In this document: positions 1,712 through 22,854 of the stretch, one piece after another
How positions within the stretch are numbered: the stretch's first letter is position 1
Layout: each line of letters begins with the position of its first letter
From: a virus
Length of the DNA stretch: 27,665 bases
Strand: one strand, 5' to 3'
Virus record (IMG/VR): IMGVR_UViG_3300032562_000145
Location: 1-27,665 of that record
The notes under the pieces: generated by a model
What the model saw: only the letters and a program-made list of their open reading frames with translations
Database searches by the model: none
What the model was told of the DNA's origin: nothing
Program-made: the position numbers and the translations under genes

Positions 1712-1908
1712 CCGGGGCGAACAAGAAATGGTGCGAGTGCAACCCTAGGTGCATGGTAAGAAACCCTAGACAACCAGTAACCCACGGCAAGAGATACACC
1801 TATGAAGGTAGACACAATTGTCGATGTGATAAATGCGTAGAAGCCTACAGAGAAGCACTTATCGAATCAGAGTTGCGGAACATTGACACTCTACTAGAGT
1901 TGGTCTAA
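1708..1908 (+). CDS. Small Cys-rich protein with a THGKxxTYxxxxxCRCDKC motif
   Basis: The product is 66 residues with six cysteines: CEC and a further Cys near the N-terminus, then CRCDKC near residues 43-48. The central THGKRYTYEGRHNCRCDKC resembles the HGT-Y-CRC-C pattern seen in many small actinophage proteins, thought to bind zinc. It ends with a helical tail (EAYREALIESELRN). It starts on an ATGA overlap and is the last gene of the coupled run; a promoter for the next gene lies just beyond it. DNA or protein binding is plausible but unproven. Confidence 0.72.
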   Translation: MTGANKKWCECNPRCMVRNPRQPVTHGKRYTYEGRHNCRCDKCVEAYREALIESELRNIDTLLELV

Positions 1909-1929
1909 GCAACTAAAGCACGGTAAAAT
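1900..1929 (+). promoter_or_regulatory. Putative promoter with ACTAAA element, possibly leaderless
   Basis: -35 TTGGTC (1900-1905), 18-base spacer, -10 TAAAAT (1924-1929). The spacer contains ACTAAA beginning exactly 12 bases before the -10, as in other promoters of this window. The downstream ATG begins 7 bases after the -10 and has no Shine-Dalgarno, so the transcript may start at or next to the start codon. Confidence 0.5.
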
Positions 1930-1935
1930 AACCCT

Positions 1936-2391
1936 ATGGACAGATACGCATACCTAAAACTGACACTCGATGAATTGGAAGAGTTGGACAACGCTATCCA
2001 CGAGTACTTCGGCGACATCCACCTAGACGGGTGGGCACGACGAATCTGCGACTTGTACGAGGAAAGAGTAACGCCCCGGGCGGGAACAAAAGCCCAAAGT
2101 GCTAAAAACCCCTACGAGTTACCAATCAGTTACTTCACAGACGGACAAATCGTCCTACAGTACAAAAACAACACCTCGGCGGGAGAAGGAATCAACCAAT
2201 GGGGAACAATCGTCTCTAAGGGTGTCAACAAAGCCAATAACATCTCAGCCGAAATCAGCACACCAAAATTCGGGCGGGAAGAAAAAGACCAAGAAGGCTC
2301 CAATACCTGTAAGTCTCACTACTGGAAACTCGTAGCCTACGCAGACGGAAGTTACCTAGAGTGCCTACAGTGCCAAACAAGGCTCAGTTAA
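1936..2391 (+). CDS. Hypothetical protein with C-terminal zinc-knuckle-like end
   Basis: The product is 151 residues. The N-terminal third is helical and acidic (LKLTLDELEELDNAIHEYFG), the middle is polar and low in structure, and the C-terminus carries CKSHYWK and a CLQC pair. These give three cysteines and a histidine that could bind one metal ion. It ends on a TAATG overlap with the small terminase gene, so the two are likely cotranslated. No Shine-Dalgarno precedes the ATG; see the promoter just upstream. A packaging-related role is suggested only by the coupling. Confidence 0.7.
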   Translation: MDRYAYLKLTLDELEELDNAIHEYFGDIHLDGWARRICDLYEERVTPRAGTKAQSAKNPYELPISYFTDGQIVLQYKNNTSAGEGINQWGTIVSKGVNKANNISAEISTPKFGREEKDQEGSNTCKSHYWKLVAYADGSYLECLQCQTRLS

Positions 2392-3152
2392 TGACAGACC
2401 CATTAAGCCCAGACATCTCTCTGTCGGAGATAACACCTAAGAGGAACGTACCAGTAGCCAAACCAAAGGCACCAGCACGTATGGGTAGGAAGACAACACT
2501 GACTCCAGAAATCATTAAGGAGATTAGTGACACCTTACGCATCTGTGCGACTATGAACGATACCGCTAGTTACCTGGGAGTCAGTTACGGAACCATGCAA
2601 TCGTGGATACGTAAGGGCACCGAATTGATGATGGAAGTAGACGCTACAGGCAGAGAATTGGATGAAGTCGAACAACTGTTCGTTAATCTTTCGGTGGAAG
2701 TAGAAAAAGCAAGAGCCGAAGCACGAATTAGGGCAGTTGGAAAGATACGTTCCGCTATGGACGGCAACTGGCAAGCAGCAGCCTGGTACCTAGAACGTAG
2801 TAACCCGAAGGAATGGTCAAGGGTATCTAGGACTGAACTTACAGGGCTTGACGGACAAGCAATCCAGGTCGACGTCGATGCAGTTAACCGGAAGTTGGAA
2901 GCGTTACTACAGGCGAACATTATCGATGTGGAAGCAATTGATGATGGCGACATCGTTGATGGGGTCGTGGTTGGACTTGGCCAAGACGACGCAAATATGT
3001 CCGATACAACCTCAAATGAGGCGAAAAAGGCGCCCCACTCACACGAGCCGGGAAAAAATTCTGAGACGCCAACCACTGAAATCGACACGTCAGTTGATGA
3101 TGACAGTGAGCGCACGAAGCAAGCAAACGTCCAAAGCGACGCTACTGAGTAG
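2391..3152 (+). CDS. Probable terminase small subunit (HTH DNA-binding)
   Basis: The product is 253 residues. A helix-turn-helix spans about residues 54-74 (MNDTASYLGVSYGTMQSWIR), followed by a coiled-coil-like helix and then WQAAAWYLERSNPKEW at 127-142, a pattern typical of phage small terminases and related DNA-binding proteins that recognise the genome end for packaging. The last 80 residues are acidic, polar and probably disordered. The start is set at the ATG sharing one base with the preceding stop; an upstream ATG in frame would lengthen it by ten residues. It is unusual that the large terminase lies about 10 kb away. A general HTH regulator is the alternative. Confidence 0.78.
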   Translation: MTDPLSPDISLSEITPKRNVPVAKPKAPARMGRKTTLTPEIIKEISDTLRICATMNDTASYLGVSYGTMQSWIRKGTELMMEVDATGRELDEVEQLFVNLSVEVEKARAEARIRAVGKIRSAMDGNWQAAAWYLERSNPKEWSRVSRTELTGLDGQAIQVDVDAVNRKLEALLQANIIDVEAIDDGDIVDGVVVGLGQDDANMSDTTSNEAKKAPHSHEPGKNSETPTTEIDTSVDDDSERTKQANVQSDATE

Positions 3153-3197
3153 TTCGTACACGCTCGACAAGCGCCAAACGTCATTGCCAAGCAAGTA

Positions 3198-3293
3198 ATT
3201 TCACTAGAATCGACGTCGATGCACGACAAAAGTGCAGTATTTCCACTCCATTACTCGGCGCTAGCCAGAGTTCATAGTGAGATTTCACTAGAA
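3198..3293. repeat. Direct repeat pair ATTTCACTAGAA (with inverted copy at 4691-4702)
   Basis: ATTTCACTAGAA occurs at 3198-3209 and 3282-3293. Its exact reverse complement occurs at 4691-4702. The wider AGTGAGATTTCACT at 3276-3289 reappears in reverse complement at 4810-4823. The copies flank the two-gene operon at 3841-4349 and may be protein-binding sites. Confidence 0.6.
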
Positions 3294-3357
3294 CACGGCG
3301 CAATCCAAGCACTTATCGCACGGTAAACACGCTTTACGACCCACTTACTCGTCAGTA

Positions 3358-3510
3358 ATGGTTGTTATACGAACGCAAGGCGTTCAAAGGTGGCACCACA
3401 GTGATACCACGGGCGATAACAAGGTGCCGGAGAATTGGAAAAGTGGCGTGCGCAACTGTAACAAGTGCAACCAGACGTTACAAGTGCTACATATGAGTCG
3501 AACCAAGTGA
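3358..3510 (+). CDS. Doubtful 50-residue frame with one CxxC
   Basis: This short frame lies in the otherwise non-coding stretch. It has a CNKC pair near its end but no Shine-Dalgarno. It lies in the same frame as the open frame at 3562 and is separated from it by two stop codons, so the pair could be the remains of one longer gene. Coding status is doubtful and no family is recognised. Confidence 0.2.
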   Translation: MVVIRTQGVQRWHHSDTTGDNKVPENWKSGVRNCNKCNQTLQVLHMSRTK

Positions 3511-3561
3511 GTGCAATATATGCAACTGGGGCTACAAGAACTTGACACATACGTCAAGTAG

Positions 3562-3777
3562 ATGTCTTCACGCCAAAACTGGGGGAAACAAAAACCCTTG
3601 CAAACAAAGGCAAGTGCTAAAAGCAAGTGCCAATTCCCTGTAGGGCGGAGACAACCACTGGCTGGTCTGGTACGACCCGAACGTACAACCACTCGATTAA
3701 CAGTCGAGCGCACTGCCATTGTGCTACAGACCAATGGGGATGACGCCACCACACTCGTTGTGGCCGGGGCGGAATGA
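3562..3777 (+). CDS. Doubtful 71-residue basic frame
   Basis: The frame would encode a basic, low-complexity N-terminal half (SRQNWGKQKPLQTKASAKSK) and a hydrophobic end. It lacks a Shine-Dalgarno; the ATG is preceded by an inverted repeat (ACTTGAC/GTCAAGT). It ends two bases before the promoter of the next operon. The composition differs from the confident genes around it, and I treat it as possible at best. Confidence 0.22.
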   Translation: MSSRQNWGKQKPLQTKASAKSKCQFPVGRRQPLAGLVRPERTTTRLTVERTAIVLQTNGDDATTLVVAGAE

Positions 3778-3778
3778 A

Positions 3779-3807
3779 TTGACTATGTTACTACACCCCT
3801 GTACACT
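3779..3807 (+). promoter_or_regulatory. Sigma70-like promoter with conserved spacer and leader
   Basis: -35 TTGACT (3779-3784), 17-base spacer ending ACTACACCCCTG, -10 TACACT (3802-3807). The leader ends GACTAGGGAGGTCAAG (3825-3840) directly before the ATG. Spacer and leader are nearly the same as those before the minus-strand genes at 12291 and 10933. Confidence 0.8.
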
Positions 3808-3840
3808 TGTTCTGTGGACTGTTTGACTAGGGAGGTCAAG

Positions 3841-4173
3841 ATGACAGTAGAAACCATGGAGCGCACCGACGTCAGTTGGTTCGACATCCTGCTAAACGCA
3901 GAGACGAAGGAATACGTCCCTGCACGACTCATCCGTACTCAGTACGGGCTCTGTTGGGCACTGGTCGACGGGGAAAACAAGTTCACGGGGAAGTTCATCA
4001 GTGCTTTCCCGGCTCGCAAGACAACGATGTTGAAGAAGGGATACATCGAAGCCGAGGGGCTGTACAAGTTCTACTGGAACAAAAAGAAGGCAACCGTAAA
4101 CCTCCCAATGGGCGAGCGAGAAAAAGGATGCGACGACAACACACCACCACTAAAGATTCGGGAGAACGACTAA
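3841..4173 (+). CDS. Hypothetical 110-residue protein
   Basis: This is the first gene of a two-gene operon with its own strong promoter and a GGGAGG Shine-Dalgarno that fixes the ATG. The middle looks like a small beta-rich fold (EYVPARLIRTQYGLCWALVDG, then a lysine-rich KKGYIEAEGLYKFYWNKKKA), and the tail is charged and polar. The basic patch could bind nucleic acid, but no known domain is recognised. It ends on a TAATG overlap with the next gene. It sits between two non-coding stretches that carry inverted repeats, which may control it. Confidence 0.75.
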   Translation: MTVETMERTDVSWFDILLNAETKEYVPARLIRTQYGLCWALVDGENKFTGKFISAFPARKTTMLKKGYIEAEGLYKFYWNKKKATVNLPMGEREKGCDDNTPPLKIREND

Positions 4174-4349
4174 TGACAGTGGACTTCAATGCCATCATCG
4201 CCTACGAGAACGGCGACCTCGACGAGGAAGAGACAATCAAACTCTTCCAGACACTCATAGACACTGGGTATGCGTGGCGCCTACAGGGACACTACGGTCG
4301 CAACGCTCGGTACCTCATCGAAGAAGGCTTCTGCACCGTGCCTGAGTGA
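4173..4349 (+). CDS. DUF7417-like small phage protein
   Basis: The 58-residue product has the pattern YENGDLDEEETIKLFQTLID followed by GYAWRLQGHYGRNARYLIEEGFC. This plan (an acidic helix, then LQGHYGR, then a second helix ending in a cysteine) is shared by a very common family of small phage proteins that I recall as DUF7417. The biochemical role is unknown. The ATG overlaps the stop of the previous gene by one base. It is the last gene before the long non-coding region. Confidence 0.8.
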   Translation: MTVDFNAIIAYENGDLDEEETIKLFQTLIDTGYAWRLQGHYGRNARYLIEEGFCTVPE

Positions 4350-4497
4350 CACACTCCAGGATGGCACCAGACGCTCTATACGCCGATTCTGGGCGAGATA
4401 CATCCCCACACGTCAGATAGCCCTAAAAGCGACCAAACCCGGGCGAAAACAACCCACCAAATCCACCAGGCGGAATTCCACCACATAGACGTCGACA

Positions 4498-4559
4498 CAG
4501 ACACTCACTCATAGACAGACACATACCCTACATACAGACACGTACTCGCACACAGACTC
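4498..4559 (+). repeat. Iteron-like array, CAGACAC every 18-19 bases
   Basis: CAGACAC at 4498-4504, 4516-4522 and 4535-4541, with a fourth diverged copy (CAGACTC) at 4553-4559. The spacing is 18, 19 and 18 bases, close to two DNA turns, as expected for sites bound on one face by a replication or partition protein. The array is followed at once by the hairpin and C/G tract. Confidence 0.5.
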
Positions 4560-4563
4560 AATG

Positions 4564-4600
4564 ACTACCGCAAGGTAGTTGCTATCCCCCCCCGGGGGGG
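4564..4600. repeat. GCAA-loop hairpin followed by C8G7 palindrome
   Basis: ACTACC-GCAA-GGTAGT (4564-4579) is a 6-base-pair stem closed by a GNRA tetraloop. Six bases later come eight C and seven G (4586-4600), a self-complementary homopolymer tract. Such a tract is rare and is a known trouble spot for sequencing and assembly, so its length should be checked. Confidence 0.6.
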
Positions 4601-5248
4601 CGTACATAAGTGTCTACAGATAACGTTATATGTCCACCACTTACGTCGACACGACATGTCGTCTCCCAGAACCACGCTACCTGAGCGGAATTCTAGTGAA
4701 ATCACGTATGCACATACTCAGGAGTAACCCATAGGAGTACTTACATCCTCACTAACGTCGCCCCCACGCTCGCTTGTGAACTCAAAACCCTTTATTTGCA
4801 AGGAATCCCAGTGAAATCTCACTTGTTTCACAAAGCGTACACACGTTCGCTTGCCATTTTGTGCCCTGTTTTCCAATTCTCATGCGCATTTTGAGGCTCT
4901 TTATGTGGTAGGACCCATAAGACCCCCCCGTCAATTATTTCAAGCGGGTTTGCGATTTCTGAAGGGGCTGGTCGCACCCTTAAACCTCTGGAAACAAAAT
5001 TAGGATACTATAGTCCGCTCTAGCCCGGAACAGGAAGATAGAGAATCCCCACACTCCACTTCGACAAACCCAAGGCAAGGGAGTGTCCATAAAGTGTCGG
5101 TTAAAGCCCTAAGCGATAGAACAAGGGCACTGACGTCGATGTCAGAAAAGAGTGACGTAAAACTGACAAAAAGACGTTTGAAGGGAACCCCGCTCTAGGG
5201 GCGCTCCGTATACAGAGACATCAACGCTTCGCTCCCTAGCGAAAAAAG

Positions 5249-5458
5249 TTACTTGCCAGGAACGTCTGTGGCGCTGGCTTCGATTTGGGCAAGCGTAGGC
5301 TCATCTCCACCATTAACGTCGCTCACAGGAGCGTTTGGAGTGGTTACGGAGCCATCTGAGCCATGCGTGTGCTTCGCATAGTCCATGTACAACATGACGA
5401 TGATAACGAGAGTACCGAAGAAGAGACACGCCAGAGCAATTGCGATGAAGTAAGCCAT
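5249..5458 (-). CDS. 69-residue single-span membrane protein
   Basis: The start is placed at the ATG directly before the hydrophobic segment; a TTG 18 codons upstream would be the alternative. Residues 2-24 form one membrane span (AYFIAIALACLFFGTLVIIV), followed by a polar, acidic, proline- and threonine-containing tail that probably sits in the cytoplasm or periplasm. It is a lone minus-strand gene facing the non-coding region. A holin or other membrane-active role is possible but unsupported by context. Confidence 0.6.
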   Translation of the reverse strand: MAYFIAIALACLFFGTLVIIVMLYMDYAKHTHGSDGSVTTPNAPVSDVNGGDEPTLAQIEASATDVPGK

Positions 5459-5641
5459 ACCCCAATAATAATCCCCCAGTTTGGAAAACGGGGTTCCTGA
5501 AAAATGATGCAATCGTCTTGACTAAATGGCAATTTTGAAAAAAGGGGGAAAATGAAAATATTTTTTTGGGGGTCTTGGGATAAATCAATGGGGAAGATTG
5601 AGTCAACATGGCTAAAAGTTTTTAAGTTCCGCCCCGGGTGC

Positions 5642-5671
5642 TTGACGGGGCTCTAGTCAAGGGAGTACACT
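5642..5671 (+). promoter_or_regulatory. Promoter with TTGAC-N9-GTCAA inverted repeat
   Basis: -35 TTGACG (5642-5647), 18-base spacer, -10 TACACT (5666-5671), driving the four-gene operon starting at 5744. TTGAC and GTCAA (5656-5660) form an inverted repeat that spans the -35 and the spacer, which could be an operator. This promoter lacks the ACTAAAC element. Confidence 0.6.
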
Positions 5672-5743
5672 TGATTCCGTGTTGCAAGAAAAATGGTTGG
5701 ACTACAAGCCATCACTTAGCGACACACCTATTAAGGAGGCTTA

Positions 5744-6301
5744 ATGTCAGAAGAAGTAAACGTTCTACCACTCGCACTAGAGCGAAAGATGAACGAGATT
5801 CTAGGCGGGTTCATCGGTTACTGGTTGAGCGAAAATCCCACAATGTCGCCAGTCGATGTCATTGAGCAAGTCGTCAACGGCGTCGTCAACGAAGGGTTGA
5901 ACGTCAACGAGGATAAGAGCGAGTTCATGCGATTCCACTCCGACCTAACGGAGTCGGGTCACACCATTTGGATTTCACGTCCCTACAGTCGCAACATTAT
6001 CTTCGGCGAAGACATCCCCCAGAAAGAAGTTGAGCGCATCCTAAGTGTGGGCGGATTCAATCTCGGTGGCGAGGGATGGACGCTAGGCATCGATTCAATG
6101 TACGAGGGCTCGCCTGTCACCTCCGTCATCTCTGAGAATCTGACCTTTGAGGTAGCGGTTCTTGCTTGCATGACCCTGTTCATGGAGAACTCAACGCCAG
6201 CGGAATTGGAAGCAAAGGCTGAGGCCATGTTTGAAGAACACGCCGAACTCCAGGACGAGATGGAGCGTATGAAGTCGTTCTTAGAGGATGAAAATGAATA
6301 G
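5744..6301 (+). CDS. Hypothetical 185-residue protein
   Basis: The first gene of a plus-strand operon, with a strong AAGGAGG Shine-Dalgarno. The product is acidic. The N-terminal half has alternating helical stretches (LALERKMNEILGGFIGYWLS) and the C-terminal 40 residues form a charged helix likely to coil (ELEAKAEAMFEEHAELQDEM). No catalytic motif is seen. Length and layout recall the protein at 6901 in the same operon (an N-terminal helical part, a central beta-rich region, a C-terminal VAVLACM or VLVAMIL helix), so they may be distant paralogues. Function unknown. Confidence 0.8.
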   Translation: MSEEVNVLPLALERKMNEILGGFIGYWLSENPTMSPVDVIEQVVNGVVNEGLNVNEDKSEFMRFHSDLTESGHTIWISRPYSRNIIFGEDIPQKEVERILSVGGFNLGGEGWTLGIDSMYEGSPVTSVISENLTFEVAVLACMTLFMENSTPAELEAKAEAMFEEHAELQDEMERMKSFLEDENE

Positions 6302-6470
6302 GCCAACCCACGTCTGTATCCACGATAAGTGCGCCAACGAGATTTACTACTCGCAGAGCCTTCTCACCTGGGTTCACTACCAGGACGAAGACCCAGCATG
6401 CCCGGAAGTGGGCGCCAACGGAAAGACAACGTATGCCAAGCCCGATTGGGCGGATGGGATTGATGACTAA
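6294..6470 (+). CDS. Small Cys/His protein, possibly zinc-binding
   Basis: The 58-residue product begins RPTHVCIHDKCANE, a Cys-His-Cys cluster, and has a third cysteine in DPACPE. The start is set at the second ATG because it lies six bases after an AGAGG Shine-Dalgarno; an ATG two codons earlier is the alternative. It overlaps the end of the previous gene by eight bases and shares one base with the ATG of the next. No family is recognised. Confidence 0.68.
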   Translation: MNRPTHVCIHDKCANEIYYSQSLLTWVHYQDEDPACPEVGANGKTTYAKPDWADGIDD

Positions 6471-6886: not shown

Positions 6887-6900
6887 TTTTTTCAATCTGA

Positions 6901-7443: not shown

Positions 7444-7455
7444 GTACCGCTAGTT

Positions 7456-7501: not shown

Positions 7502-7511
7502 GATTGGTTGT

Positions 7512-10933: not shown

Positions 10934-10966
10934 TCTGACCTCCCTAGTCGTTTATTTTACCTACTA

Positions 10967-10995
10967 ACTATACCACAGTTTAGTCAACTATGTGG
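10967..10995 (-). promoter_or_regulatory. Promoter with ACTAAAC element
   Basis: On the minus strand: a weak -35 (CCACAT), 17-base spacer containing ACTAAAC that begins 12 bases before the -10, then -10 TATAGT (10967-10972). The leader ends GACTAGGGAGGTCAGA just before the ATG at 10933. The ACTAAAC position is the same as in the promoters at 12325 and 20252. Confidence 0.6.
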
Positions 10996-12103: not shown

Positions 12104-12291
12104 ACTCGAATACCCCCTCGGATTTCATCGATGAGTTCCAGGACAATTCGTCCGCTTTCCTCGTCGTGCATGACCAGGTTTTCAATCATTCCCCCGCAGT
12201 CGATGCACTTCAGGTTTTCCCAGTACTTGCATCCGCACTCGCAACGAACAAGACCTTGCAATCCCTCGTTCAGCATCTCAACATTCGTCAT
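12100..12291 (-). CDS. Small zinc-ribbon-like protein
   Basis: The 63-residue product has a CECGCKYWENLKCIDCGG segment at about residues 17-34, giving paired cysteine knuckles of a zinc ribbon, followed by an acidic helix. It is the first gene after a strong promoter and has the AAGGGAGGTCGAG leader seen at other loci. It ends on an ATGA overlap. The ribbon suggests binding to nucleic acid or protein, without further evidence. Confidence 0.75.
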   Translation of the reverse strand: MTNVEMLNEGLQGLVRCECGCKYWENLKCIDCGGMIENLVMHDEESGRIVLELIDEIRGGIRV

Positions 12292-12324
12292 CTCGACCTC
12301 CCTTGTCGATTTCCTTACTTAACC

Positions 12325-12353
12325 AGTGTACAGGGGTTTAGTGCATAAGTCAA
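12325..12353 (-). promoter_or_regulatory. Strong promoter with ACTAAACCCCTG spacer
   Basis: On the minus strand: -35 TTGACT (12348-12353), 17-base spacer ending ACTAAACCCCTG, -10 TACACT (12325-12330). The leader ends GACAAGGGAGGTCGAG before the ATG at 12291. It is back to back with the plus-strand promoter at 12407. Confidence 0.85.
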
Positions 12354-12406
12354 GAATTCATGAAAATCTCTGTGAGCATAAAAATAGAACCTTTTCAAAA
12401 GTGTAC

Positions 12407-12435
12407 TTGACAACGGTTTAGTAAATCTGTACAAT
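12407..12435 (+). promoter_or_regulatory. Strong promoter with inverted TTTAGT element
   Basis: -35 TTGACA (12407-12412), 17-base spacer, -10 TACAAT (12430-12435), followed by AAAGGAG before the ATG at 12460. The spacer holds ACGGTTTAGTA, which is the reverse complement of the TACTAAACCGT type of element seen in other promoters. The element can therefore sit in either orientation, as expected of a protein-binding site. Confidence 0.85.
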
Positions 12436-12459: not shown

Positions 12460-12663
12460 ATGGGAACACAAGTAATCGGGAGAATTACTGACACCCTCGC
12501 AATTGAAGCATGGGGGCGTGAAGACGGTAAGTGGGAAGTAGTTATCTGCACGGTTGACGCCGATGGGGAATTTACTGGCGACTGGTCTGTTCTTCGTGTT
12601 TTTGATGCGGAAGAAGATGCTTGTTCATGGGCAACTTCACGACGAGAAAGTCTTTTGACGTGA
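12460..12663 (+). CDS. Hypothetical 67-residue protein
   Basis: It has a strong AAAGGAG Shine-Dalgarno and near-consensus promoter, so it is probably well expressed early. The product is beta-rich and acidic (TLAIEAWGREDGKWEVVICT, then GDWSVLRVFDAEEDACSWAT). It resembles a small two-layer fold, but no family is recognised. It overlaps the next gene by four bases (GTGA). The promoter arrangement, back to back with another, hints at a switch region. Confidence 0.75.
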   Translation: MGTQVIGRITDTLAIEAWGREDGKWEVVICTVDADGEFTGDWSVLRVFDAEEDACSWATSRRESLLT

Positions 12664-13323: not shown

Positions 13324-13434
13324 ATGATGACGAGCCCAATCCACCACATACTGTTCAATTCAGAACTTGTTGGCATCGGCCTCATCGCTGGCTTTTTTAT
13401 TGCCATGCTCATCTCCTTCTTCCGCAAGAACTAA
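13324..13434 (+). CDS. 36-residue membrane peptide before the terminase
   Basis: A short frame with two ATGs in a row and an AGGAG Shine-Dalgarno four bases before the first. Residues 15-33 form a hydrophobic span (LVGIGLIAGFFIAMLISFF), followed by a basic RKN end, so it is a single-span membrane peptide. Its TAA shares one base with the ATG of the large terminase, whose own ribosome binding site is weak. Translation of the terminase therefore probably depends on this small gene. Its separate function, if any, is unknown. Confidence 0.62.
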   Translation: MMTSPIHHILFNSELVGIGLIAGFFIAMLISFFRKN

Positions 13435-15470
13435 TGAACCCACTCATTAAAAAACTTGCCGCTGCTACGCCGGAGCAGAGAAACGCAATTCTTTCCAAAC
13501 TTTCGACGGAAGAATTAACATCCGTTTTCAAGCAACTCGAATCCATCGAGAACGCTCCGATGCGCCACTGGTATTGCACCCGTGCGACGTGCGATGGCAA
13601 CCCTCACGCAGGTTTCCATTGGTGCGAACACCCAGTCGACGGTAAGCACACCCCGTTCTGCAAACACGCAAGAACACCACAGCGACCTCCGCACAGCGAC
13701 CCAGATGACCCATGGCTTGTTTGGTTCTTCTCGGGCGGACGTGGCACGGGTAAGGCTCTTGCTCTTGATACGCCTATTCCCACGCCATTTGGTTGGGCAA
13801 AGATGGGTGAACTGAAAGAAGGGGACGTTGTATTTGACGAGCGGGGGCGTATGTGCAACGTCACTGCCATTTACGACGTAATGCCAGAGCGTGCGTACCG
13901 ATTGACCTTCTCTGACGGAAGCGAAATCGTGGCGTGCGACGAACACCAGTGGGCGACACTCACCGCCCAAGAACGAAAGCAACTAAATCGCAAGGGGCTT
14001 CCAATCCCCGACGACTGGGCTAACAAAGCGCCAATCACTACCGCCGACATTGTGGCGACGTTGAAGTATGGCAAGCGTGGCGACACCAACCACGCCATTC
14101 CCGTTTCCAAACCGTTGGAACTTCCCAACGCCAACCTTCCTATTGACCCGTACATTTTGGGGGTGTGGCTTGGCGACGGTTCATCTGGCGGTGCAGACAT
14201 AACTTGTCATGACGACGACATTGCGCACTATCGCCAGAAGTTTGACGGGGTTGGTGAAATCTTTGGAGAGGGTCGCTACCGAGACGCCGACAAGCCCACC
14301 GCAACGTATCGTTTTGGAAACAAGCCCGAACAACTTAATGCTTTGGGGCAAATGACAGCCAATGGCTCAATGCACTCAAAACTACGAGAACTTGGTTTGA
14401 TAAATAACAAGCACGTTCCCGTTGTGTACTTCCGTGGCTCCGTAAGCCAGCGCATTTCACTGCTTCATGGCTTGATGGACACGGACGGGTACATTGACGA
14501 GCGTGGTATGGCAGAGTTCACGTCTACAAAGCGTGTTCTTGCCGAAGCCGTAGTTGAACTTGCTCGCTCACTTGGTCAAAAGCCAGTCATGTCAGTTGGG
14601 CGCTCAACCTTGTATGGCAAGGACTGTGGCGAAAAGTATCGTGTGCACTGGCGACCCACCATTGAAGTGGTTTCTTTGCCTCGTAAGTTGGAGCGACAGA
14701 AGCCCTACGGCGCACAGTCAATGCGCAATCACCACCTCATGGTCGTATCCGCCACAGAGGAACTGCTCCAACCTATGCGCTGCATTACGGTGGACAGTCC
14801 TAACTCCATGTACCTTGCGGGCGAGGCAATGATACCGACCCACAACACCCGAGCCGGGGCTGAGTGGGTTTTGGACTTGGTTTGGAATCAAGGGTACAAG
14901 CGCATCGCCCTCGTTGGTCGAACACCAGCGGACGTTCGAGACGTAATGATTTACGGAGACTCGGGAATTATGTCCGTGTCCGACCCAAACCCAAGGCCGA
15001 TTCACGAGCCAACCAAGAGACGACTGATTTGGGAAAACGGCGCTCAGGCTTTCACGTACTCGGCTGCTGCGCCGAGTCAGTTGCGTGGTCCTCAGCACGA
15101 CGCTGCTTGGTGCGATGAGTTAGCGGCGTGGACAGACGCACCAAAGGGTGACTCCCTCGATACGAGTTGGAACAACTTGATGCTTGGTCTCCGTTTGGGA
15201 ACTGACCCGAAGTGCCTTGTCACCACGACACCAAAGCGTGTCAAATTGGTTCGACAAGTTATGGAGCGACGCACAACCGTAATCACTAACGGTACGACGT
15301 ATGAAAACCTCGACAACCTTGCTCCGTCGTTTAAAGACCAGGTTCTAACGTCCTACGCAGGAACAAGAATCGGACGACAGGAGTTGGATGGCGTCGTCCT
15401 CTCCGACGTCGAAGGCGCTCTATGGTCTCTGGAAATGATTGATTCTCTTCGTGGGGAGTTGGTCGAATGA
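13434..15470 (+). CDS. Large terminase ATPase part, interrupted by an intein
   Basis: The 678-residue precursor is the ATP-driven DNA packaging motor, minus its nuclease. Residues 1-107 hold a Cys/His-rich N-terminal region (WYCTRATCDGNPHAGFHWC) and the first part of Walker A, GGRGTGK (101-107). An intein fills 108-471. The ATPase resumes with TRAGAEW (472-478), giving GGRGTGK-TRAGAEW after splicing. The Walker B acid pair is Asp561-Glu562 (AAWCDELAAW), and the coupling motif is LVTTTPKR (595-602). The spliced product would have 314 residues. The nuclease domain is missing and is encoded by the overlapping next gene. Without splicing the ATP site is broken. Confidence 0.92.
   Translation: MNPLIKKLAAATPEQRNAILSKLSTEELTSVFKQLESIENAPMRHWYCTRATCDGNPHAGFHWCEHPVDGKHTPFCKHARTPQRPPHSDPDDPWLVWFFSGGRGTGKALALDTPIPTPFGWAKMGELKEGDVVFDERGRMCNVTAIYDVMPERAYRLTFSDGSEIVACDEHQWATLTAQERKQLNRKGLPIPDDWANKAPITTADIVATLKYGKRGDTNHAIPVSKPLELPNANLPIDPYILGVWLGDGSSGGADITCHDDDIAHYRQKFDGVGEIFGEGRYRDADKPTATYRFGNKPEQLNALGQMTANGSMHSKLRELGLINNKHVPVVYFRGSVSQRISLLHGLMDTDGYIDERGMAEFTSTKRVLAEAVVELARSLGQKPVMSVGRSTLYGKDCGEKYRVHWRPTIEVVSLPRKLERQKPYGAQSMRNHHLMVVSATEELLQPMRCITVDSPNSMYLAGEAMIPTHNTRAGAEWVLDLVWNQGYKRIALVGRTPADVRDVMIYGDSGIMSVSDPNPRPIHEPTKRRLIWENGAQAFTYSAAAPSQLRGPQHDAAWCDELAAWTDAPKGDSLDTSWNNLMLGLRLGTDPKCLVTTTPKRVKLVRQVMERRTTVITNGTTYENLDNLAPSFKDQVLTSYAGTRIGRQELDGVVLSDVEGALWSLEMIDSLRGELVE
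13755..14846 (+). other. Class 3 intein with LAGLIDADG homing endonuclease
   Basis: This 364-residue insertion begins with Ala108 instead of Cys or Ser, followed by LALDTPIPTPFGW. Its block B has DEHQW (Trp173), block F has MRCITVDSPN with Cys450, and block G has MIPTHN with Thr469, His470 and Asn471, followed by Thr472 as +1 residue. Trp, Cys and Thr at these places are the hallmark of class 3 inteins, in which the block F cysteine starts splicing. LGVWLGDGS (242-250) and LLHGLMDTDGY (343-353) are the two LAGLIDADG motifs of a homing endonuclease. All splice residues are present, so it is probably active. Confidence 0.9.
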
Positions 15471-16105
15471 TTACCGTAAAGGCAGAAGAATTTTTGAGAA
15501 TTGTTGTTGGCGTCGACCCCGCAATTACTTCGGGAGAAGATGCGGACGAAACGGGAATCGTTGTCGTCGCAAGCGGACCGCACCAGCCGGATACTTGCTC
15601 TATTGAACACTGCACTCTTCACGCCTATGTTTTGGAAGATGCGACACTGCCAAAGGGCTCAAAGGCAAGTCCCGAAAAATGGGGACGACGTGTAGTCGAT
15701 GCGTTCGACGAATGGAACGCTGGAATCGTTGTCGTTGAAGGTAACGCTGGGCGTGAACTTCTTCGAAGCGTTCTTCATAACATCAGGCCGACCATGCCCG
15801 TGGACATCCCAAATGCGAAGTACAACAAAGCGAGTCGAGCGGAGCCGGTCGTGTCTTTGTATGAGCAGGGTCGTGTTCACCACATTGGAGACCCGGCGAA
15901 GTTTGCTCTTTTGGAAGACCAAATGACAACGTGGGTTCCAACTGGTTCACGTGGCCGGGGCAAGTCCTCGCCAGACCGAATGGACGCCCTGGTTTGGGCA
16001 ATAAGCGAGTTGGACATTAACACCGGGGTGCGCCGTCGTCGGTGGGAAGTCGAAGACGGCATCGCCCCATTGGGGTTTGGCCAGTCAAACCACTGGCAAA
16101 TTTAA
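15467..16105 (+). CDS. Large terminase nuclease domain (separate gene)
   Basis: The 212-residue product matches the C-terminal RNase H-like nuclease of phage large terminases, which cuts the genome concatemer. IVVGVDPAITSGEDADETG at about residues 12-30 gives the first catalytic acid (Asp17). VVVEGNAGREL gives Glu91, and SPDRMDALVWAISEL gives the last pair, Asp170 and Asp173. It begins on an ATGA overlap with the ATPase gene, with a GGGGAG Shine-Dalgarno, so the two are coupled. In most phages these domains form one chain. Here the break falls in the linker, so both halves should fold and may reassemble. Confidence 0.88.
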   Translation: MITVKAEEFLRIVVGVDPAITSGEDADETGIVVVASGPHQPDTCSIEHCTLHAYVLEDATLPKGSKASPEKWGRRVVDAFDEWNAGIVVVEGNAGRELLRSVLHNIRPTMPVDIPNAKYNKASRAEPVVSLYEQGRVHHIGDPAKFALLEDQMTTWVPTGSRGRGKSSPDRMDALVWAISELDINTGVRRRRWEVEDGIAPLGFGQSNHWQI

Positions 16106-17926: not shown

Positions 17927-17953
17927 GTAAATCTCCCTTTTGTCTACATAACC

Positions 17954-17982
17954 ATTGTACAGATACTACGGTTTAGTTTCAA
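17954..17982 (-). promoter_or_regulatory. Promoter with ACTAAACC element and inverted repeat
   Basis: On the minus strand: -35 TTGAAA, 17-base spacer starting CTAAACCG, -10 TACAAT (17954-17959). An alternative reading is TTGACT-16-TATCTG, which would put ACTAAAC 12 bases before the -10 as elsewhere. GTTTCAA-N6-TTGAAAC (17976-17995) overlaps the -35 as an inverted repeat and also touches the stop of the upstream gene. Confidence 0.7.
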
Positions 17983-17994
17983 GTCAATTTGAAA

Positions 17995-18339
17995 CTATTT
18001 TTTGACCACTTCGCCATTGTTGTACCAGGACTCCGTGAAGTCGATTGCCATCTGAAGTTCATCCAACGGCGGAGTCCCAGATACCTTCAATTCAATAATC
18101 CCAAACTCGGCGAGCCGATTCAAAAACAACTCATCGCTAAGTTCGTCGTCTATGAGAATTCGATACTGAACAAAAACACGGTATGCAATTCCTCGCTTTG
18201 GGAACTTGTGGTCTAGTGGCGCCCAGGAACGTTCTCCAATTGTTTGAAGTACGTCAAATGCCGAAGGCGCAATGATGACTTCGTTGCCCCACTTGATTTC
18301 CCACTTTGCGTCGGTTGGTACAAGGTTTGGGATGTTCAT
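17995..18339 (-). CDS. Hypothetical 114-residue protein
   Basis: It has a GAGAGG Shine-Dalgarno a short way before the ATG. The product has a strand-rich N-terminus (AKWEIKWGNEVIIAPSAFDV), a basic GIAYRVFVQYRILID stretch, and a helical C-terminal half (ELQMAIDFTESWYNNGEVVKK). No cysteine and no known motif. It sits between the glutamine amidotransferase gene and the 361-residue gene, in the same direction. Function unknown. Confidence 0.72.
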   Translation of the reverse strand: MNIPNLVPTDAKWEIKWGNEVIIAPSAFDVLQTIGERSWAPLDHKFPKRGIAYRVFVQYRILIDDELSDELFLNRLAEFGIIELKVSGTPPLDELQMAIDFTESWYNNGEVVKK

Positions 18340-18404
18340 TTTTTTTACCTCTCGTTATCCGCTGTTGCCAGTATGACGGTTATCGTCTTCCAATTCAAAT
18401 CAAC

Positions 18405-19139
18405 TTACGCAATCTGCTTCAGGCTTTCGCCAATCTCTCGGGTCTCAACAATTTCGCCATTGCGAACTCGGATGTAGGTGTACGGTTCAAGGTCTTCGTA
18501 CCAAAGAATGTCAACACCAGCCTTGTCGCAAGCACGAAGAAGAAGGTCTTCCGTCGAAGCAAAGAACAAGGAGCCCTTCTCCGTCGAGCCGACCGTCAAA
18601 GGTGAGCCGTCGCATCGTGCAAGGTGCAAGTCACGCTTTTCACGAGCATCAAGCCAAGCCAGCGCAGCACGTCCCTGCAACGAACGCAATACGTCGGCTG
18701 GGTGATGACGAGTTAAGTTCAAAAGCGCAAAAGCAGCCTCACTATCAACCTGCGCCTGGCGCTCTTCGTTTAGGTACTCAAAGATGTTGTCGTCGTTGTT
18801 TAGAACGCCGTTGTGGACGCCGATAATCTTCCCTGAAACGATTGGGTGGTTGTTTAGATTGTCATCGGGTGAGCCCTTGGTTGCCCATCGGGTGTGAAGG
18901 ATTGCTCGCTTCGTGTTCGTGGACATCTTCGTTAGATACTGGTCGAAAAGAGACGCTGGCACTGGAGCCTTGCTAACAGCAATGGTTGAGCGCTTACTCT
19001 TTTCGGTTGGAGCCACGACCCATGATGCGCCAGTGGCGTCTTTGCCACGAGATGCAATCTCTTTTAGCAAGCAACTTGAAACCTTACGTGCATTAATCTT
19101 CTCGTTTGGGCTTAGGCAAAATCCTGCAATTCCACACAT
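18405..19139 (-). CDS. Class II glutamine amidotransferase
   Basis: The 244-residue protein frees ammonia from glutamine for transfer to another substrate. The start is the ATG that places cysteine second (MCGIAGF), as required for the N-terminal nucleophile once Met is removed; an AAGGAG Shine-Dalgarno supports it, and longer starts would block the enzyme. Other active-site elements are SRGKDATG (30-37), HTRWATKG (82-89), VHNG (108-111) and DSEA (132-135). It has no synthetase domain, so an ammonia-using partner is expected; the amidoligase gene 10 bases upstream is the obvious candidate. Confidence 0.92.
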   Translation of the reverse strand: MCGIAGFCLSPNEKINARKVSSCLLKEIASRGKDATGASWVVAPTEKSKRSTIAVSKAPVPASLFDQYLTKMSTNTKRAILHTRWATKGSPDDNLNNHPIVSGKIIGVHNGVLNNDDNIFEYLNEERQAQVDSEAAFALLNLTRHHPADVLRSLQGRAALAWLDAREKRDLHLARCDGSPLTVGSTEKGSLFFASTEDLLLRACDKAGVDILWYEDLEPYTYIRVRNGEIVETREIGESLKQIA

Positions 19140-19149
19140 GTGGTTCTCC

Positions 19150-20214
19150 TTAGTTTCGAGTGCTGGCAAGTCGCTCGGCACGGTTGGTTAGATACTGCTT
19201 GACGGTGGGCTTGATGTCGAGGCTGTCCAGGAGGCTGGACAGGTTTCCAAGTTCTGTTCGGGCGTCATCGAGGGTGACAGCCTTTTCGACCATCGCAAGA
19301 ATGAACTGAATCCAAGATGTCAACTTTTCGGGGCTGAGCGTTCCCTGGTGCTGGCGGAACTCCAAGGTTCCGTACTTGGAATAGGACTGGATATTGATGA
19401 CACGGTACCGTGAGCCAGTGTTGAAGACATTCTTCTGTTGCTTGGTCTGCTCCACGTCTGTCATGCGTCGGATTAAACCCCACGTGTGGTCTTCCGTACG
19501 AATGGCTTGCTGGGTGTACGGAGCGCAGTACTGGTTGCTGTGACGACTGCTGGCAACCAGAGTGTTGATGCTCTTCTGGTTAGCAATGTAGAAGTCAATC
19601 ACCTTCATGAGGTCGTAGCCAGTGAGGTTGTCCATGCCAACGTGAACGTGGATTCCGCAAGTGCGGTCAACTGAAGCGCCAGCGTCCATCAGAGCCTTGA
19701 TTGCAGTGGCCATCTTTTCCAATCCTTCGACGCCCTGAAGAACAGGGGAGACCAATTCAAGTCCGTTTCGAACACCAGTGCCACGCTTTGTAACGGAAGC
19801 ATCCGTCACAATCTTCCAAGCAGAGGTCACTTCGTGGGTGTACCCACGGAACTCAACGTCGATGCCGACGTTACGCAATGCGCCAACTGCGACGGTGGGC
19901 GAGATTCCAAAGAACTCAGCCTCGACGCCGAATGTGCGCTGTGAGGGAATTTCCGAAAACCCTTCGGGGCGGACGCCCTCGTTCTCGGGAACACCACCGT
20001 TGCTCTCCAGCCGACGCTTAGCAGCACGTACCGCCTCTGCTGCGGACTGAGGGCGTGGGACGCCGTTGGGCGTGAAGCCGAGTTGACGAGCGATGTCGAT
20101 GTATGACATGCCACCATTGCGCAGACGAAGTGCTTCGTCCTGGCGAGCGATGGTTGCGGAGCGGTCACGATTGATTGATGACCTGTTGTACTGCACTGGT
20201 CGGTTACTTGGCAT
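19150..20214 (-). CDS. Amidoligase with N-terminal HTH
   Basis: The 354-residue protein has a helix-turn-helix-like N-terminus (RLRNGGMSYIDIARQLGF, about 30-47) and an amidoligase domain of the glutamine-synthetase-like COOH-NH2 ligase group. Key parts are FGVEAEFFG (95-103), WKIVTDAS (133-140), GLELVSPVLQG (151-161), CGIHVHVG (186-193) and GTLEFRQHQGT near residue 300. The acids, histidines and arginine fit an ATP and metal site. Such enzymes join an amine or ammonia to a carboxylate of a peptide or metabolite. The substrate is unknown. It has its own promoter and is followed by the amidotransferase gene. Confidence 0.88.
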   Translation of the reverse strand: MPSNRPVQYNRSSINRDRSATIARQDEALRLRNGGMSYIDIARQLGFTPNGVPRPQSAAEAVRAAKRRLESNGGVPENEGVRPEGFSEIPSQRTFGVEAEFFGISPTVAVGALRNVGIDVEFRGYTHEVTSAWKIVTDASVTKRGTGVRNGLELVSPVLQGVEGLEKMATAIKALMDAGASVDRTCGIHVHVGMDNLTGYDLMKVIDFYIANQKSINTLVASSRHSNQYCAPYTQQAIRTEDHTWGLIRRMTDVEQTKQQKNVFNTGSRYRVINIQSYSKYGTLEFRQHQGTLSPEKLTSWIQFILAMVEKAVTLDDARTELGNLSSLLDSLDIKPTVKQYLTNRAERLASTRN

Positions 20215-20251
20215 ACTGTCTCCCTTGGTTGGCCAATTTTCCTACACACCA

Positions 20252-20280
20252 ATAGTACAGGGGTTTAGTACCGATTGCAA
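20252..20280 (-). promoter_or_regulatory. Promoter of the amidoligase operon
   Basis: On the minus strand: -35 TTGCAA (20275-20280), 17-base spacer ending GTACTAAACCCCTG, -10 TACTAT (20252-20257). The ACTAAACCCCTG part is identical to that of the promoter at 12325. The leader has CAAGGGAG before the ATG at 20214. Confidence 0.82.
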
Positions 20281-20355
20281 ATCCTACAGCCCATGAAAAT
20301 AAAGGCTTTCCAAAAGAACTTTTAAAAACATCCGTCAACCAGCAAAATAAAACTA

Positions 20356-20384
20356 TTGCTTTTACCACCCGATGACTGTACCAT
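20356..20384 (+). promoter_or_regulatory. Promoter, divergent from the amidoligase promoter
   Basis: -35 TTGCTT (20356-20361), 17-base spacer ending GATGACTG, -10 TACCAT (20379-20384). GGTTGAGTACC follows directly and resembles the GGTTTAGTACC form of the element on the other strand at 20262. AAGGGAG precedes the ATG at 20415. The two divergent promoters are about 75 bases apart. Confidence 0.68.
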
Positions 20385-20414
20385 GGTTGAGTACCTCAAA
20401 CAAGGGAGAAAATT

Positions 20415-20672
20415 ATGAGCAAGCCAAAGCGTCGTCGTCACGTCAAGCGTGGTCGACCCGAGACCGAGACGGTGCGTCTAGCAGGTCTGCTCCTTGGTGC
20501 TTTGACGTGGTTCTATGCAGGTGCTTTCATCACACCGCTGGGGAACGAAGAACAGAGCGGAACTCGATTCGGCGTCTTGTGCGCCTTCTGTTGGATGCCA
20601 CTTTTCATCTTTCTGTGGCAGTTGATAGTCGCAATTGGTTTCGTCATTCGGGAAGATTTTCGTAAGCGCTAA
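20415..20672 (+). CDS. 85-residue membrane protein, two spans
   Basis: A basic N-terminus (SKPKRRRHVKRGRPETE) precedes two hydrophobic segments (RLAGLLLGALTWFYAGAFIT at about 21-40 and GVLCAFCWMPLFIFLWQLIV at about 53-72) and a basic end (REDFRKR). By the positive-inside rule both ends lie in the cytoplasm. A strong AAGGGAG Shine-Dalgarno fixes the start. It is divergent from the amidoligase operon and may be expressed together with it. No family is recognised. Confidence 0.78.
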   Translation: MSKPKRRRHVKRGRPETETVRLAGLLLGALTWFYAGAFITPLGNEEQSGTRFGVLCAFCWMPLFIFLWQLIVAIGFVIREDFRKR

Positions 20673-20711
20673 ACACCACATGAGTTAGCCCCGTTTGGTA
20701 ATGTTGGGTTC

Positions 20712-21149
20712 ATGACTCATCTTGAAATAGAAATCAAAACAGGAACGGTTAACGTCTGCAAGCGAAATGCCATTAACGGCATTGTCACCCGTGAGGTTTG
20801 CATCGGCTCCGTTAGTTCGGATGAGTCATCAGAGGAACGTTGCAAGAGCGCCGAAGAAATCGCAAAAAACTTTGGTTGGATTGCCGTTGATGAATGGGTG
20901 AGCGGAGAGACCCACCAATGGGTCGAGTGCCAGGCGAAGCCGGTCTCTGTTTCGTTCGTAAGCGAGTCAGCCCCTGACAATGCGGTATCTCTTGCAAAAT
21001 CAGCGGGCGTTGACGCCGAAAAACTTCTTTACGAGGAGCCCTACGACGCCGAAAGCGGAAAAATCCGTGTTTGGTTTGAGGTCGCCGAGCCCAAGGGCTG
21101 GACGTGGGAAGAAAACTTGCCATGGGGAAACTGGTTTGACGAGGAGTAA
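20712..21149 (+). CDS. Hypothetical 145-residue protein
   Basis: The product is acidic with strand-rich parts (THLEIEIKTGTVNVCKR, then TREVCIGSVSSDESSEE), a helix (ERCKSAEEIAKNFGWIAV), and an acidic, tryptophan-rich C-terminus (PKGWTWEENLPWGNWFDEE). There is no Shine-Dalgarno; a possible -10 (TAATGT) ends seven bases before the ATG, so the transcript may be leaderless. No family is recognised. Confidence 0.72.
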   Translation: MTHLEIEIKTGTVNVCKRNAINGIVTREVCIGSVSSDESSEERCKSAEEIAKNFGWIAVDEWVSGETHQWVECQAKPVSVSFVSESAPDNAVSLAKSAGVDAEKLLYEEPYDAESGKIRVWFEVAEPKGWTWEENLPWGNWFDEE

Positions 21150-21152
21150 GAA

Positions 21153-21383
21153 GTGATTGACCACAAATGGATTGAAGATAGCGAATTTCTGTACATTTTG
21201 GATAGCGTTCTTTATCCCAAAGAGATGAAGAGTCGTTTCGTGGTTAATCACCACTGGCAAGAAGGTTGGCAGACCTGTATCCAAAACGAAAATGAAGAAA
21301 TCATTGTTTTGAAAAACAACGCCACCCGAGAAATGGCAAAGGTTTACGCCTACCGTCTTTTGCGTGAACTAGAACGCTCGTAA
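21153..21383 (+). CDS. Hypothetical 76-residue protein
   Basis: The GTG start follows a GAGGAG Shine-Dalgarno at a good distance. The product has aromatic and histidine residues (VVNHHWQEGWQTCIQNENEE) and a C-terminal helix (TREMAKVYAYRLLRELERS). It may be a small beta-alpha protein related in plan to the 81-residue protein at 16102. It is separated from the next gene by one base. Function unknown. Confidence 0.7.
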   Translation: MIDHKWIEDSEFLYILDSVLYPKEMKSRFVVNHHWQEGWQTCIQNENEEIIVLKNNATREMAKVYAYRLLRELERS

Positions 21384-21384
21384 A

Positions 21385-21726
21385 ATGGAGCGACTTCCCC
21401 TCTATCGCCGGATAATCATCCTCGCCACTGGCATCATTTCCAAAGATGATGCGAAGATGTTTGGTTTCAGCGCTTCATCTGCGTTGCCCGAGGAAGTTCA
21501 AATCCAAATTGCAACGCAAGAAGCCCTAGCAGCGGCCATCGAAATGATTGGACTCCAAAGCGAAGTCTGGGAAGATTTATCCGACACCATTCGTGACATG
21601 GGCATATACGTTGAACTAGAGTTTTCAACGGCACGTCGTTTGGATGAAGTCGCCAAAAGGCTGGAGGCTTCGTTGGACGTAGTTAAAGAGCCGATAGGTC
21701 TCGAAATGGATTGGAACATTGAATAA
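21385..21726 (+). CDS. Hypothetical 113-residue protein
   Basis: The ATG comes one base after the stop of the preceding gene, which suggests coupling. The product is mostly helical (PEEVQIQIATQEALAAAIEM, ARRLDEVAKRLEASLDVVKE), with a basic, hydrophobic N-terminus (ERLPLYRRIIILATGIIS). No cysteine and no known motif. Function unknown. Confidence 0.7.
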   Translation: MERLPLYRRIIILATGIISKDDAKMFGFSASSALPEEVQIQIATQEALAAAIEMIGLQSEVWEDLSDTIRDMGIYVELEFSTARRLDEVAKRLEASLDVVKEPIGLEMDWNIE

Positions 21727-21727
21727 C

Positions 21728-22021
21728 ATGACCGAAGAAAACACATCACCAGAGCCAACGGAGTCTGAACTCAAAGACATTGAGTTTGATGAGCGAATTC
21801 AAAGCCTGATGAAGGTTCACGAAATTGAGCGCAAGATGCTCAGCCGTGCAATTTACGTGCTTTGCGACATGAGTGGCAAGTCACCAGAAGAGACAGTAAA
21901 ACTTCTTTCGCAAGACCTCGATGAAGAGTACGTGGAAGCAGTTAAGCAAGCGGAGGAACAAGAGAAGGCCGAGAAAAACAAGCCAAAACTCTACATTCCA
22001 AACCGCAAACTCAACCTGTAA
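21728..22021 (+). CDS. Hypothetical 97-residue acidic protein
   Basis: The ATG lies one base after the stop of the previous gene; a TTG three codons upstream would overlap it. The product is strongly acidic, with a disordered start (TEENTSPEPTESELKDIEFD), two helices (IQSLMKVHEIERKMLSRAIY and SPEETVKLLSQDLDEEYVEA) and a charged end. It converges with the next minus-strand gene, only six bases away. Function unknown. Confidence 0.7.
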   Translation: MTEENTSPEPTESELKDIEFDERIQSLMKVHEIERKMLSRAIYVLCDMSGKSPEETVKLLSQDLDEEYVEAVKQAEEQEKAEKNKPKLYIPNRKLNL

Positions 22022-22027
22022 TTCGAA

Positions 22028-22405
22028 CTACTTGATTATTTGAAAGTAGTGCTTAATAACCCTCTTCTTTGTCTTCTTTGACATAGGCGAGGGAGTTTTG
22101 TACTCGTCCGAATGGAACAAACTACCTTGCGCTTGTTTTTTAGCAGAGGTTATTGGAACGACCGGCGCTTTACGAAGACCCTGAATGTATGAATCAGGAA
22201 CCGTTATTTCTGGTAGGTCGAACATGATTTCATCATCCGTCTCTTCAAAGAGATAGTACGGAAGGTCTTTCAGGGTGCAACCAATGAAGTGGCACCACTC
22301 GAAGTCGTCCATCCCACGAACGTGGTCTTCTCGCAGGTCATACCTCCTTGCAAGATAGAAGATGTCGTCCTCGTTAAGAGAGTTTGATACTTGTCTCACC
22401 ACCAC
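22028..22405 (-). CDS. Hypothetical 125-residue protein
   Basis: Three GTG codons in a row overlap the stop of the upstream gene; I use the first because AAAGG lies five bases before it. A TTG eight codons farther upstream would overlap the upstream gene by 34 bases. The product has an acidic helical middle (DLREDHVRGMDDFEWCHFIG, then LPYYLFEETDDEIMFDLPEI) and a basic, disordered C-terminus (SPMSKKTKKRVIKHYFQIIK). It is coupled to the cyclotransferase-like gene. No family is recognised. Confidence 0.68.
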   Translation of the reverse strand: MVVRQVSNSLNEDDIFYLARRYDLREDHVRGMDDFEWCHFIGCTLKDLPYYLFEETDDEIMFDLPEITVPDSYIQGLRKAPVVPITSAKKQAQGSLFHSDEYKTPSPMSKKTKKRVIKHYFQIIK

Positions 22406-22818
22406 ACCGACCTTTCTGCCGATAGCCAATTATTGTCAGGAACCGCTCCGCCGTGGGTTTCTTCCCAGGTGCAAATGAGTGCCATCTCTCGGCGCCCATC
22501 GGCCAACTCAACTTCGCCTTCGCTCATTCGGTACCCCGAATTTGTTTCCATGCGTAGAAGGTCTACAAACTCTGAACACACTCGAACTTCGTATAGTTCA
22601 CCGACTGCTTCGTCATCAAACTTTTTAGTCCAGACGCAATAGGGGTAGGACTTGTGATTGACTCCGTAAAAGAGTCGTGCGTATCGCAACTTCGCTTCAC
22701 CCACTTCGTTTACAATGATGTTCTTCAGCCACTGTTCGTGCAATGGCTCTCCCTTTCGGAGGGTTCCATACGCAAAAAACATAAGCGTCTCGGTCGGTGC
22801 TATTACTTCATTTTCCAT
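22396..22818 (-). CDS. Gamma-glutamylcyclotransferase-like protein (GGCT/AIG2 fold)
   Basis: The 140-residue product has the GGCT substrate loop FAYGTLRKGEPLH (15-27) and the acid Glu91 in LLRMETNSGYR, where these enzymes carry the catalytic glutamate after a GELYEV strand (73-78). GGCT-fold proteins release 5-oxoproline from gamma-glutamyl amides or amines. In this window it lies about 2 kb from an amidoligase and a glutamine amidotransferase, so it may trim or reverse the bonds they make. The start is the ATG eight bases after a TATAGT -10; no Shine-Dalgarno is present. Confidence 0.85.
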   Translation of the reverse strand: MENEVIAPTETLMFFAYGTLRKGEPLHEQWLKNIIVNEVGEAKLRYARLFYGVNHKSYPYCVWTKKFDDEAVGELYEVRVCSEFVDLLRMETNSGYRMSEGEVELADGRREMALICTWEETHGGAVPDNNWLSAERSVWW

Positions 22819-22825
22819 ATAGCCC

Positions 22826-22854
22826 ACTATAGCATTTTTTAGCACCCACCGCAA
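22826..22854 (-). promoter_or_regulatory. Promoter for the cyclotransferase-like gene, likely leaderless
   Basis: On the minus strand: -35 TTGCGG (22849-22854), 17-base spacer with GCTAAAAAATGC, -10 TATAGT (22826-22831). The CTAAA element is at the same distance from the -10 as in the other promoters. The ATG begins eight bases after the -10, so transcription would start at or within a base or two of the start codon. Confidence 0.65.

Follow-up and report, generated by a model that had tools for sequence, protein, structure and literature searches.

An 18-bp inverted repeat built into promoters of a group of related, probably actinobacterial, viruses is a putative operator

To our knowledge, little is known about gene control in the phages of the abundant, mostly uncultured freshwater Actinobacteria. 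Phage operators of the CI/Cro type are inverted repeats that lie over the -10 or -35 element and block polymerase, while the LexA boxes of Gram-positive bacteria share an AC-N4-GT geometry. Operators dispersed over a phage genome are already known from the Cluster A mycobacteriophages (e.g., L5), in which many copies of a short site occur genome-wide in promoters and intergenic gaps. These stoperators are 13-bp asymmetric sequences bound by a monomeric phage protein, a known repressor, and their orientation is tied to transcription (PMC9283540). In the Cluster K phages, a 13-bp element (SAS) with a Shine-Dalgarno core lies a few bases before the ATG of non-structural genes, and is sometimes accompanied by an upstream DNA element (ESAS) in which two 17-bp repeats are separated by a variable spacer (PMC3203893).

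The stretch analysed here (the window) is the virus record IMGVR_UViG_3300032562_000145, positions 1-27,665, taken as a whole (27,665 nt), with genes called by a simple home-made caller. The window includes genes for a terminase, an amidoligase, a glutamine amidotransferase and a WhiB-type regulator (23181-23621). The virus family is presumably of freshwater origin, judging by the sample numbers. WhiB is taken to mark actinobacterial phages (PMC10202952), which makes an actinobacterial host probable. Two other contigs overlap the right end of the window and continue its sequence identically (i.e., the same virus), and four syntenic relatives (G004, G005, G008 and G015) have ~30 genes in common with the window virus; all of these records are partial. 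A megablast search against phage isolates returned no match, and the closest annotated isolates found are the Arthrobacter Laroyevirus (Cluster AL, e.g., Shrooms and Laroye), with a portal 50-51% identical over 77% of the query, a glutamine amidotransferase ~41-43% identical and an amidoligase. Shrooms has a single match to the repeat described below (<=2 mismatches) in 59.7 kb, with no sign of an operator network. Several other features of the window virus and its relatives are noted. In the large terminase ORF (13434-15470, 678 aa), the Walker A motif (GRGTGK ... THNTRAGAEW) is interrupted by an intein-like stretch several hundred residues long, which is absent from G005; the ATPase and nuclease parts of the terminase are two overlapping ORFs, the second at 15467-16105. 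The region 3153-5743 is gene-poor; it holds few confident genes and includes the tRNA gene as well as a run of poly-C/poly-G near 4590. The peptide motif KGDxxGHxFHGNQ is shared by many proteins, most of them from the structural region (L128, the contig beyond the window end; L136 and L267).

The preliminary description of the window had noted ACTAAAC-like sequences within the spacers of several promoters. This 7-mer alone hardly exceeds chance (6 seen versus 3.1 expected in the window) and is only half of the element, which as a whole is an 18-bp inverted repeat, ACTANAC-N4-GTNTAGT, with half-site centres 11 bp apart, about one helical turn. What had been read as a spacer element was one half-site; its partner usually includes the -10 or the -35. 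The window holds 6 matches to the dyad with <=2 mismatches (0.64 expected) and 21 with <=3 mismatches (8.0 expected), counts that none of 100 shuffles reach. The half-sites ACTANAC and GTNTAGT were also scanned with spacers of 0-12 over 277 kb, comprising the window virus, its extension and four relatives. At a spacer of 4 and <=2 mismatches, 43 of 47 sites in the window virus and four relatives are intergenic and 4 are coding, although intergenic DNA makes up only 14.5% of the sequence scanned; <=1 mismatch gives 16 intergenic and 0 coding sites. Other spacers or orientations (inward-facing, direct) give 1-12 intergenic sites, which is background. The enrichment in intergenic over coding DNA by which the preliminary description proposed to judge a regulon is, thus, found.

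Because the window virus and four relatives had served to define the consensus, it was tested on other viruses. In three long relatives outside its definition, a spacer of 4 gives 17 sites in intergenic and 6 in coding DNA, compared to 0-6 intergenic sites at other spacers. Across 15 records, a partly overlapping set that includes these three held-out relatives, 59 dyad sites are found versus 11 for a reversed control pattern. Enrichment is modest in held-out loci around the portal gene (11 intergenic versus ~4; 0 coding), surroundings that hold few promoters of the operator type. Promoters of the same kind in relatives carry ACTATACCCCTGTATAGT or ACTACACCCCTGTATAGT, both inverted repeats, and the perfect palindrome ACTATACCCCTGTATAGT is present in G004 and G018. 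The window sites are less symmetric than those of the relatives, with one perfect and most at 2-3 mismatches. As one half-site also serves as a promoter hexamer, promoter constraint could account for part of the dyad symmetry.

Relative to the best sigma70-like promoter in the vicinity, many sites are centred at -15 or -28 (Table 1). When the centre is at -15, the downstream half-site contains the -10 hexamer (GTATAGT); when at -28, the upstream half-site covers most of the -35 hexamer (ACTTGAC). The CC-rich half points opposite ways in the two arrangements relative to transcription, which is allowed because the element is an inverted repeat. Of 60 sites, 35 lie 15-60 bases ahead of a start codon, as compared to 24% of random intergenic positions, and the sites are mostly outside the structural gene block (G004, G005 and G015). 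An alignment of eight promoter modules reveals a shared core and a variable remainder. Conservation at individual genes is also apparent: the amidoligase is preceded by an operator-like site (<=3 mismatches) in 6/6 viruses, including G008 with a site ~127 bases upstream; a sequence near-identical to ACTGTACCATGGTTGAGT precedes the amidoligase in G004 and G006; orthologs of the gamma-glutamyl-cyclotransferase-like gene are preceded by sites in G004, G005, G008 and G015; the G004 ortholog of gene 12291-12100 is likewise under a putative operator promoter; and the G004 counterpart (26% identity) of gene 17926-16841 is preceded by ACTAAACCGTAGTAAACT (G004 4886). In side observations, a tRNA-Asn gene (3659-3733, minus strand) lies 57 bases from the 3790 site, a tRNA-Gln of G004 is in a similar relation to its site at 12112, and in relatives (L129, L130 and L136) a second repeat, TGAC-N8-GTCA (AATGACTTGATTTTGTCACTAAACCCC), is found around the -35, adjoining the 18-bp repeat.

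Table 1. Putative operators, predicted promoters and leader repeats of the window (mismatches relative to the dyad; promoter assignments predicted from sequence)
Feature	Position	Strand	Sequence	Mismatches; centre	Promoter or leader elements	Gene downstream
Putative operator	3790..3807	+	ACTACACCCCTGTACACT	2; ~-15	-35 TTGACT 3779-3784; -10 TACACT 3802-3807, within right half	3841-4173 (predicted to be driven)
Perfect dyad	10967..10984	-	ACTAAACTGTGGTATAGT	0	-10 TATAGT 10972-10967; weak -35	10933-10517 (predicted to be driven)
Putative operator	12325..12342	-	ACTAAACCCCTGTACACT	~-15	-10 TACACT 12330-12325; -35 TTGACT 12353-12348	12291-12100 (predicted to be driven)
Putative operator	12405..12422	+	ACTTGACAACGGTTTAGT	1; ~-28	left half has most of -35 TTGACA 12407-12412; -10 TACAAT 12430-12435	12460-12663 (predicted to be driven)
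Degenerate putative operator	17960..17977	-	ACTAAACCGTAGTATCTG	3	TTGAAA-17-TACAAT	17926-16841
Putative operator	20252..20269	-	ACTAAACCCCTGTACTAT	3; ~-15	-10 TACTAT; -35 TTGCAA	amidoligase 20214-19150 (predicted to be driven)
Putative operator	20375..20392	+	ACTGTACCATGGTTGAGT	2	-10 TACCAT 20379-20384 (overlapped); -35 TTGCTT 20356-20361	ORF 20415-20672
Degenerate putative operator	22826..22843	-	GCTAAAAAATGCTATAGT	3	-10 TATAGT 7 bases ahead of ATG 22818; near-leaderless	gamma-glutamyl-cyclotransferase-like gene
Weak candidate operator	1912..1929	+	ACTAAAGCACGGTAAAAT	3	-10 TAAAAT directly upstream of ATG; near-leaderless	ATG 1936
Weak candidate operator	5640..5657	+	GCTTGACGGGGCTCTAGT	3	overlaps -35 TTGACG	5744-6301
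Leader repeat	3825..3837	+	GACTAGGGAGGTC		Shine-Dalgarno between GAC and GTC	ATG 3841
Leader repeat	10937..10949	-	GACTAGGGAGGTC			ATG 10933
Leader repeat	12295..12307	-	GACAAGGGAGGTC			ATG 12291

The individual sites of the preliminary description fared unequally. Its 12-base sequence ACTAAACCCCTG is exact at 12342-12331 and 20269-20258 (both minus strand) and has one mismatch at 3790-3801 (plus strand), as confirmed by re-reading and pattern search; the last of these sites is real but starts at 3790 instead of 3791. The perfect dyad at its 10978 site reads ACTATACCACAGTTTAGT, with a centre other than CCCC. Also real is the reversed copy at 12407, which has a 17-bp spacer between the hexamers and ACTAAAC on the minus strand (12422-12416) and represents the -28 type of placement. 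A fixed distance between the ACTAAAC-type sequence and the -10 holds for several promoters but not for that of gene 17926, where the proposed 16-base spacer is a forced reading because TTGAAA-17-TACAAT is the better promoter and places ACTAAAC beside the -35; the sites at 1912 and 22818 are weak, each off the full consensus at 3 of 12 positions. Of the promoter and leader module described as shared, the promoter element is indeed shared, whereas the leader repeat is separate and occurs at few of these promoters.

As a second element, separate from the putative operator, the leader repeat lies at the ribosome-binding site. The GAC(T/A)AGGGAGGTC leader noted ahead of the ATGs at 3841, 10933 and 12291 is borne out by re-reading and pattern search, with GACWAGGGAGGTC exact at all three of the leader positions in Table 1, once just beyond the window end and once in G004. 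The copy beyond the window end belongs to a further, very similar promoter and leader, which lies ~42 bases past that end on an overlapping contig from this virus, outside the stretch on which the preliminary description was based, and reads TTGACTTTTTGACTAAACCCCTGTACACT followed by GACTAGGGAGGTCAG-ATG. Similarly to the SAS of Cluster K, GACWAGGGAGGTC is a 13-bp sequence with a Shine-Dalgarno core a few bases before the ATG, and its outer three bases are self-complementary (GAC-N7-GTC here, GGG-N7-CCC in SAS; PMC3203893). By contrast, direct comparison reveals more than two differences from the SAS definition (GGGATAGGAGCCC, <=2 mismatches), the copies are few, and the fixed 7-4-7 repeat within the promoter core differs from the variably spaced ESAS. 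The leader repeat probably acts on translation. A hairpin that includes the Shine-Dalgarno sequence is only faintly suggested: the complementary ends have p=0.028 in the window and extension, where copies are not independent, and 0.064 in the relatives, and the predicted folds are unexceptional except one.

A clade-wide inverted repeat that is largely intergenic and tied to promoters supports the regulon under one DNA-binding protein that had been proposed, and ACTANAC-N4-GTNTAGT is probably an operator for one dimeric protein, which most likely co-represses host sigma-A type promoters. Least probable is the reading that the repeat is no operator at all and that the resemblance stems from constraint on the core promoter, from duplication of promoter modules or from divergent promoters whose -10 hexamers mirror each other. 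The half-sites do overlap hexamers, and 12289-12353 is 82% identical over 66 bp to the module beyond the window end; however, the hexamers do not include the second half-site, which invariably stands at a distance of 4 bp and persists in a place with no divergent gene (G004 22021), no other spacing is enriched, and other viruses agree. Fixed positions within promoters would also be expected of an element that marks promoters for activation by a phage activator or a phage-modified polymerase, the altered polymerase of the preliminary description. This reading is very unlikely, as the element is placed at either -15 or -28 and in both orientations, the hexamers are ordinary (TTGACA/TATAAT-like) with spacing mostly of 17 bp, and no sigma region 4 protein scores above threshold in the partial records. 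A centre at -15 is, moreover, an unusual position for an activator.

A host regulator exploited by the phages (e.g., a LexA-like repressor), such that phage genes follow the state of the host, is an unlikely but more serious alternative. The inner AC-N4-GT layout resembles LexA boxes, one such promoter is also found in a second, mostly different phage group, and searches for a phage repressor gave none: profile searches of the partial records detect no HTH_3/CI-type repressor above cut-off and no integrase, Pfam scans of two long relatives return only WhiB proteins and weak HTH matches, and PHROG scans of the long relatives give no convincing regulator candidate. On the other hand, the LexA box CGAAC-N4-GTTCG has only the inner AC-N4-GT in common with the dyad consensus, and a CCCCTG-type promoter, a pattern narrower than the dyad, has 4 hits among 84,980 species genomes, all in Bacillota (read as chance matches) and 0 in Actinobacteria. 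The other phage group (G011, G017 and G018) has little site excess beyond one strong promoter each; in L175 and L173, also of a mostly different group, a strong promoter of the operator type has no called gene start close downstream. A scan of viral contigs with ACTAAACCCCTGTA returned 110 stretches and is uninformative alone, because most are apparently unrelated.

Among phage-encoded proteins, the WhiB proteins (two in G004, G008 and G015 and three in G005; in the window virus, a second gene lies upstream of the portal gene, beyond the window end) are the only clear regulators seen. A candidate for the binding protein, an MNKN-type HTH family, was rejected, being present in four relatives but not found in the window virus and three others, as was an HTH-like stretch at the N-terminus of the amidoligase, which aligns also in Shrooms, a phage with no operator network.

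From a repeat of fixed spacing that is placed in intergenic DNA and promoters across related viruses, we infer binding by a dimer, repression and its timing. One dimeric DNA-binding protein would bind the 18-bp putative operator, which forms part of ordinary promoters of the host sigma-A type, most of them ahead of non-structural genes. A dimer that covers the -10 or the -35 would keep host RNA polymerase away and, therefore, the protein most likely represses; these promoters may be repressed together, e.g., for early-gene shut-off or expression timing. The cultured Cluster AL phages are not reported as temperate, and Galaxy is named as the only temperate phage of its set (PMC5513430). With this and no integrase or CI-type repressor found in the partial records, a role in the timing of lytic genes is at least as likely as one in lysogeny.

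The proposed system is unlike that of Cluster A in that an 18-bp inverted repeat with a fixed 4-bp spacer replaces the asymmetric 13-bp site, orientations are opposite at -15 and -28 promoters instead of following transcription, and no repressor or integrase is found by generic family searches of the incomplete record. It likewise differs from CI/Cro operators, which are clustered at one switch, in being dispersed over many promoters with no CI, Cro or integrase gene detected. The sequence, the symmetric 7-4-7 form, the placement at two positions and the group of phages all seem to be new, and a limited literature search found no description of such an operator. It is possible, though doubtful, that an apparently non-integrating clade of freshwater actinophages relies on one palindromic operator, with a half-site able to form part of either the -10 or the -35, as a genome-wide switch of non-structural genes, and that the phage protein binding it is outside the recognised repressor families. 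With an operator identifiable from sequence, co-regulated genes could be listed across many viruses and the regulator could be sought with the site as bait, and the two-way promoter design, in which the operator is fused to the -10 or the -35, would be testable in a laboratory strain.
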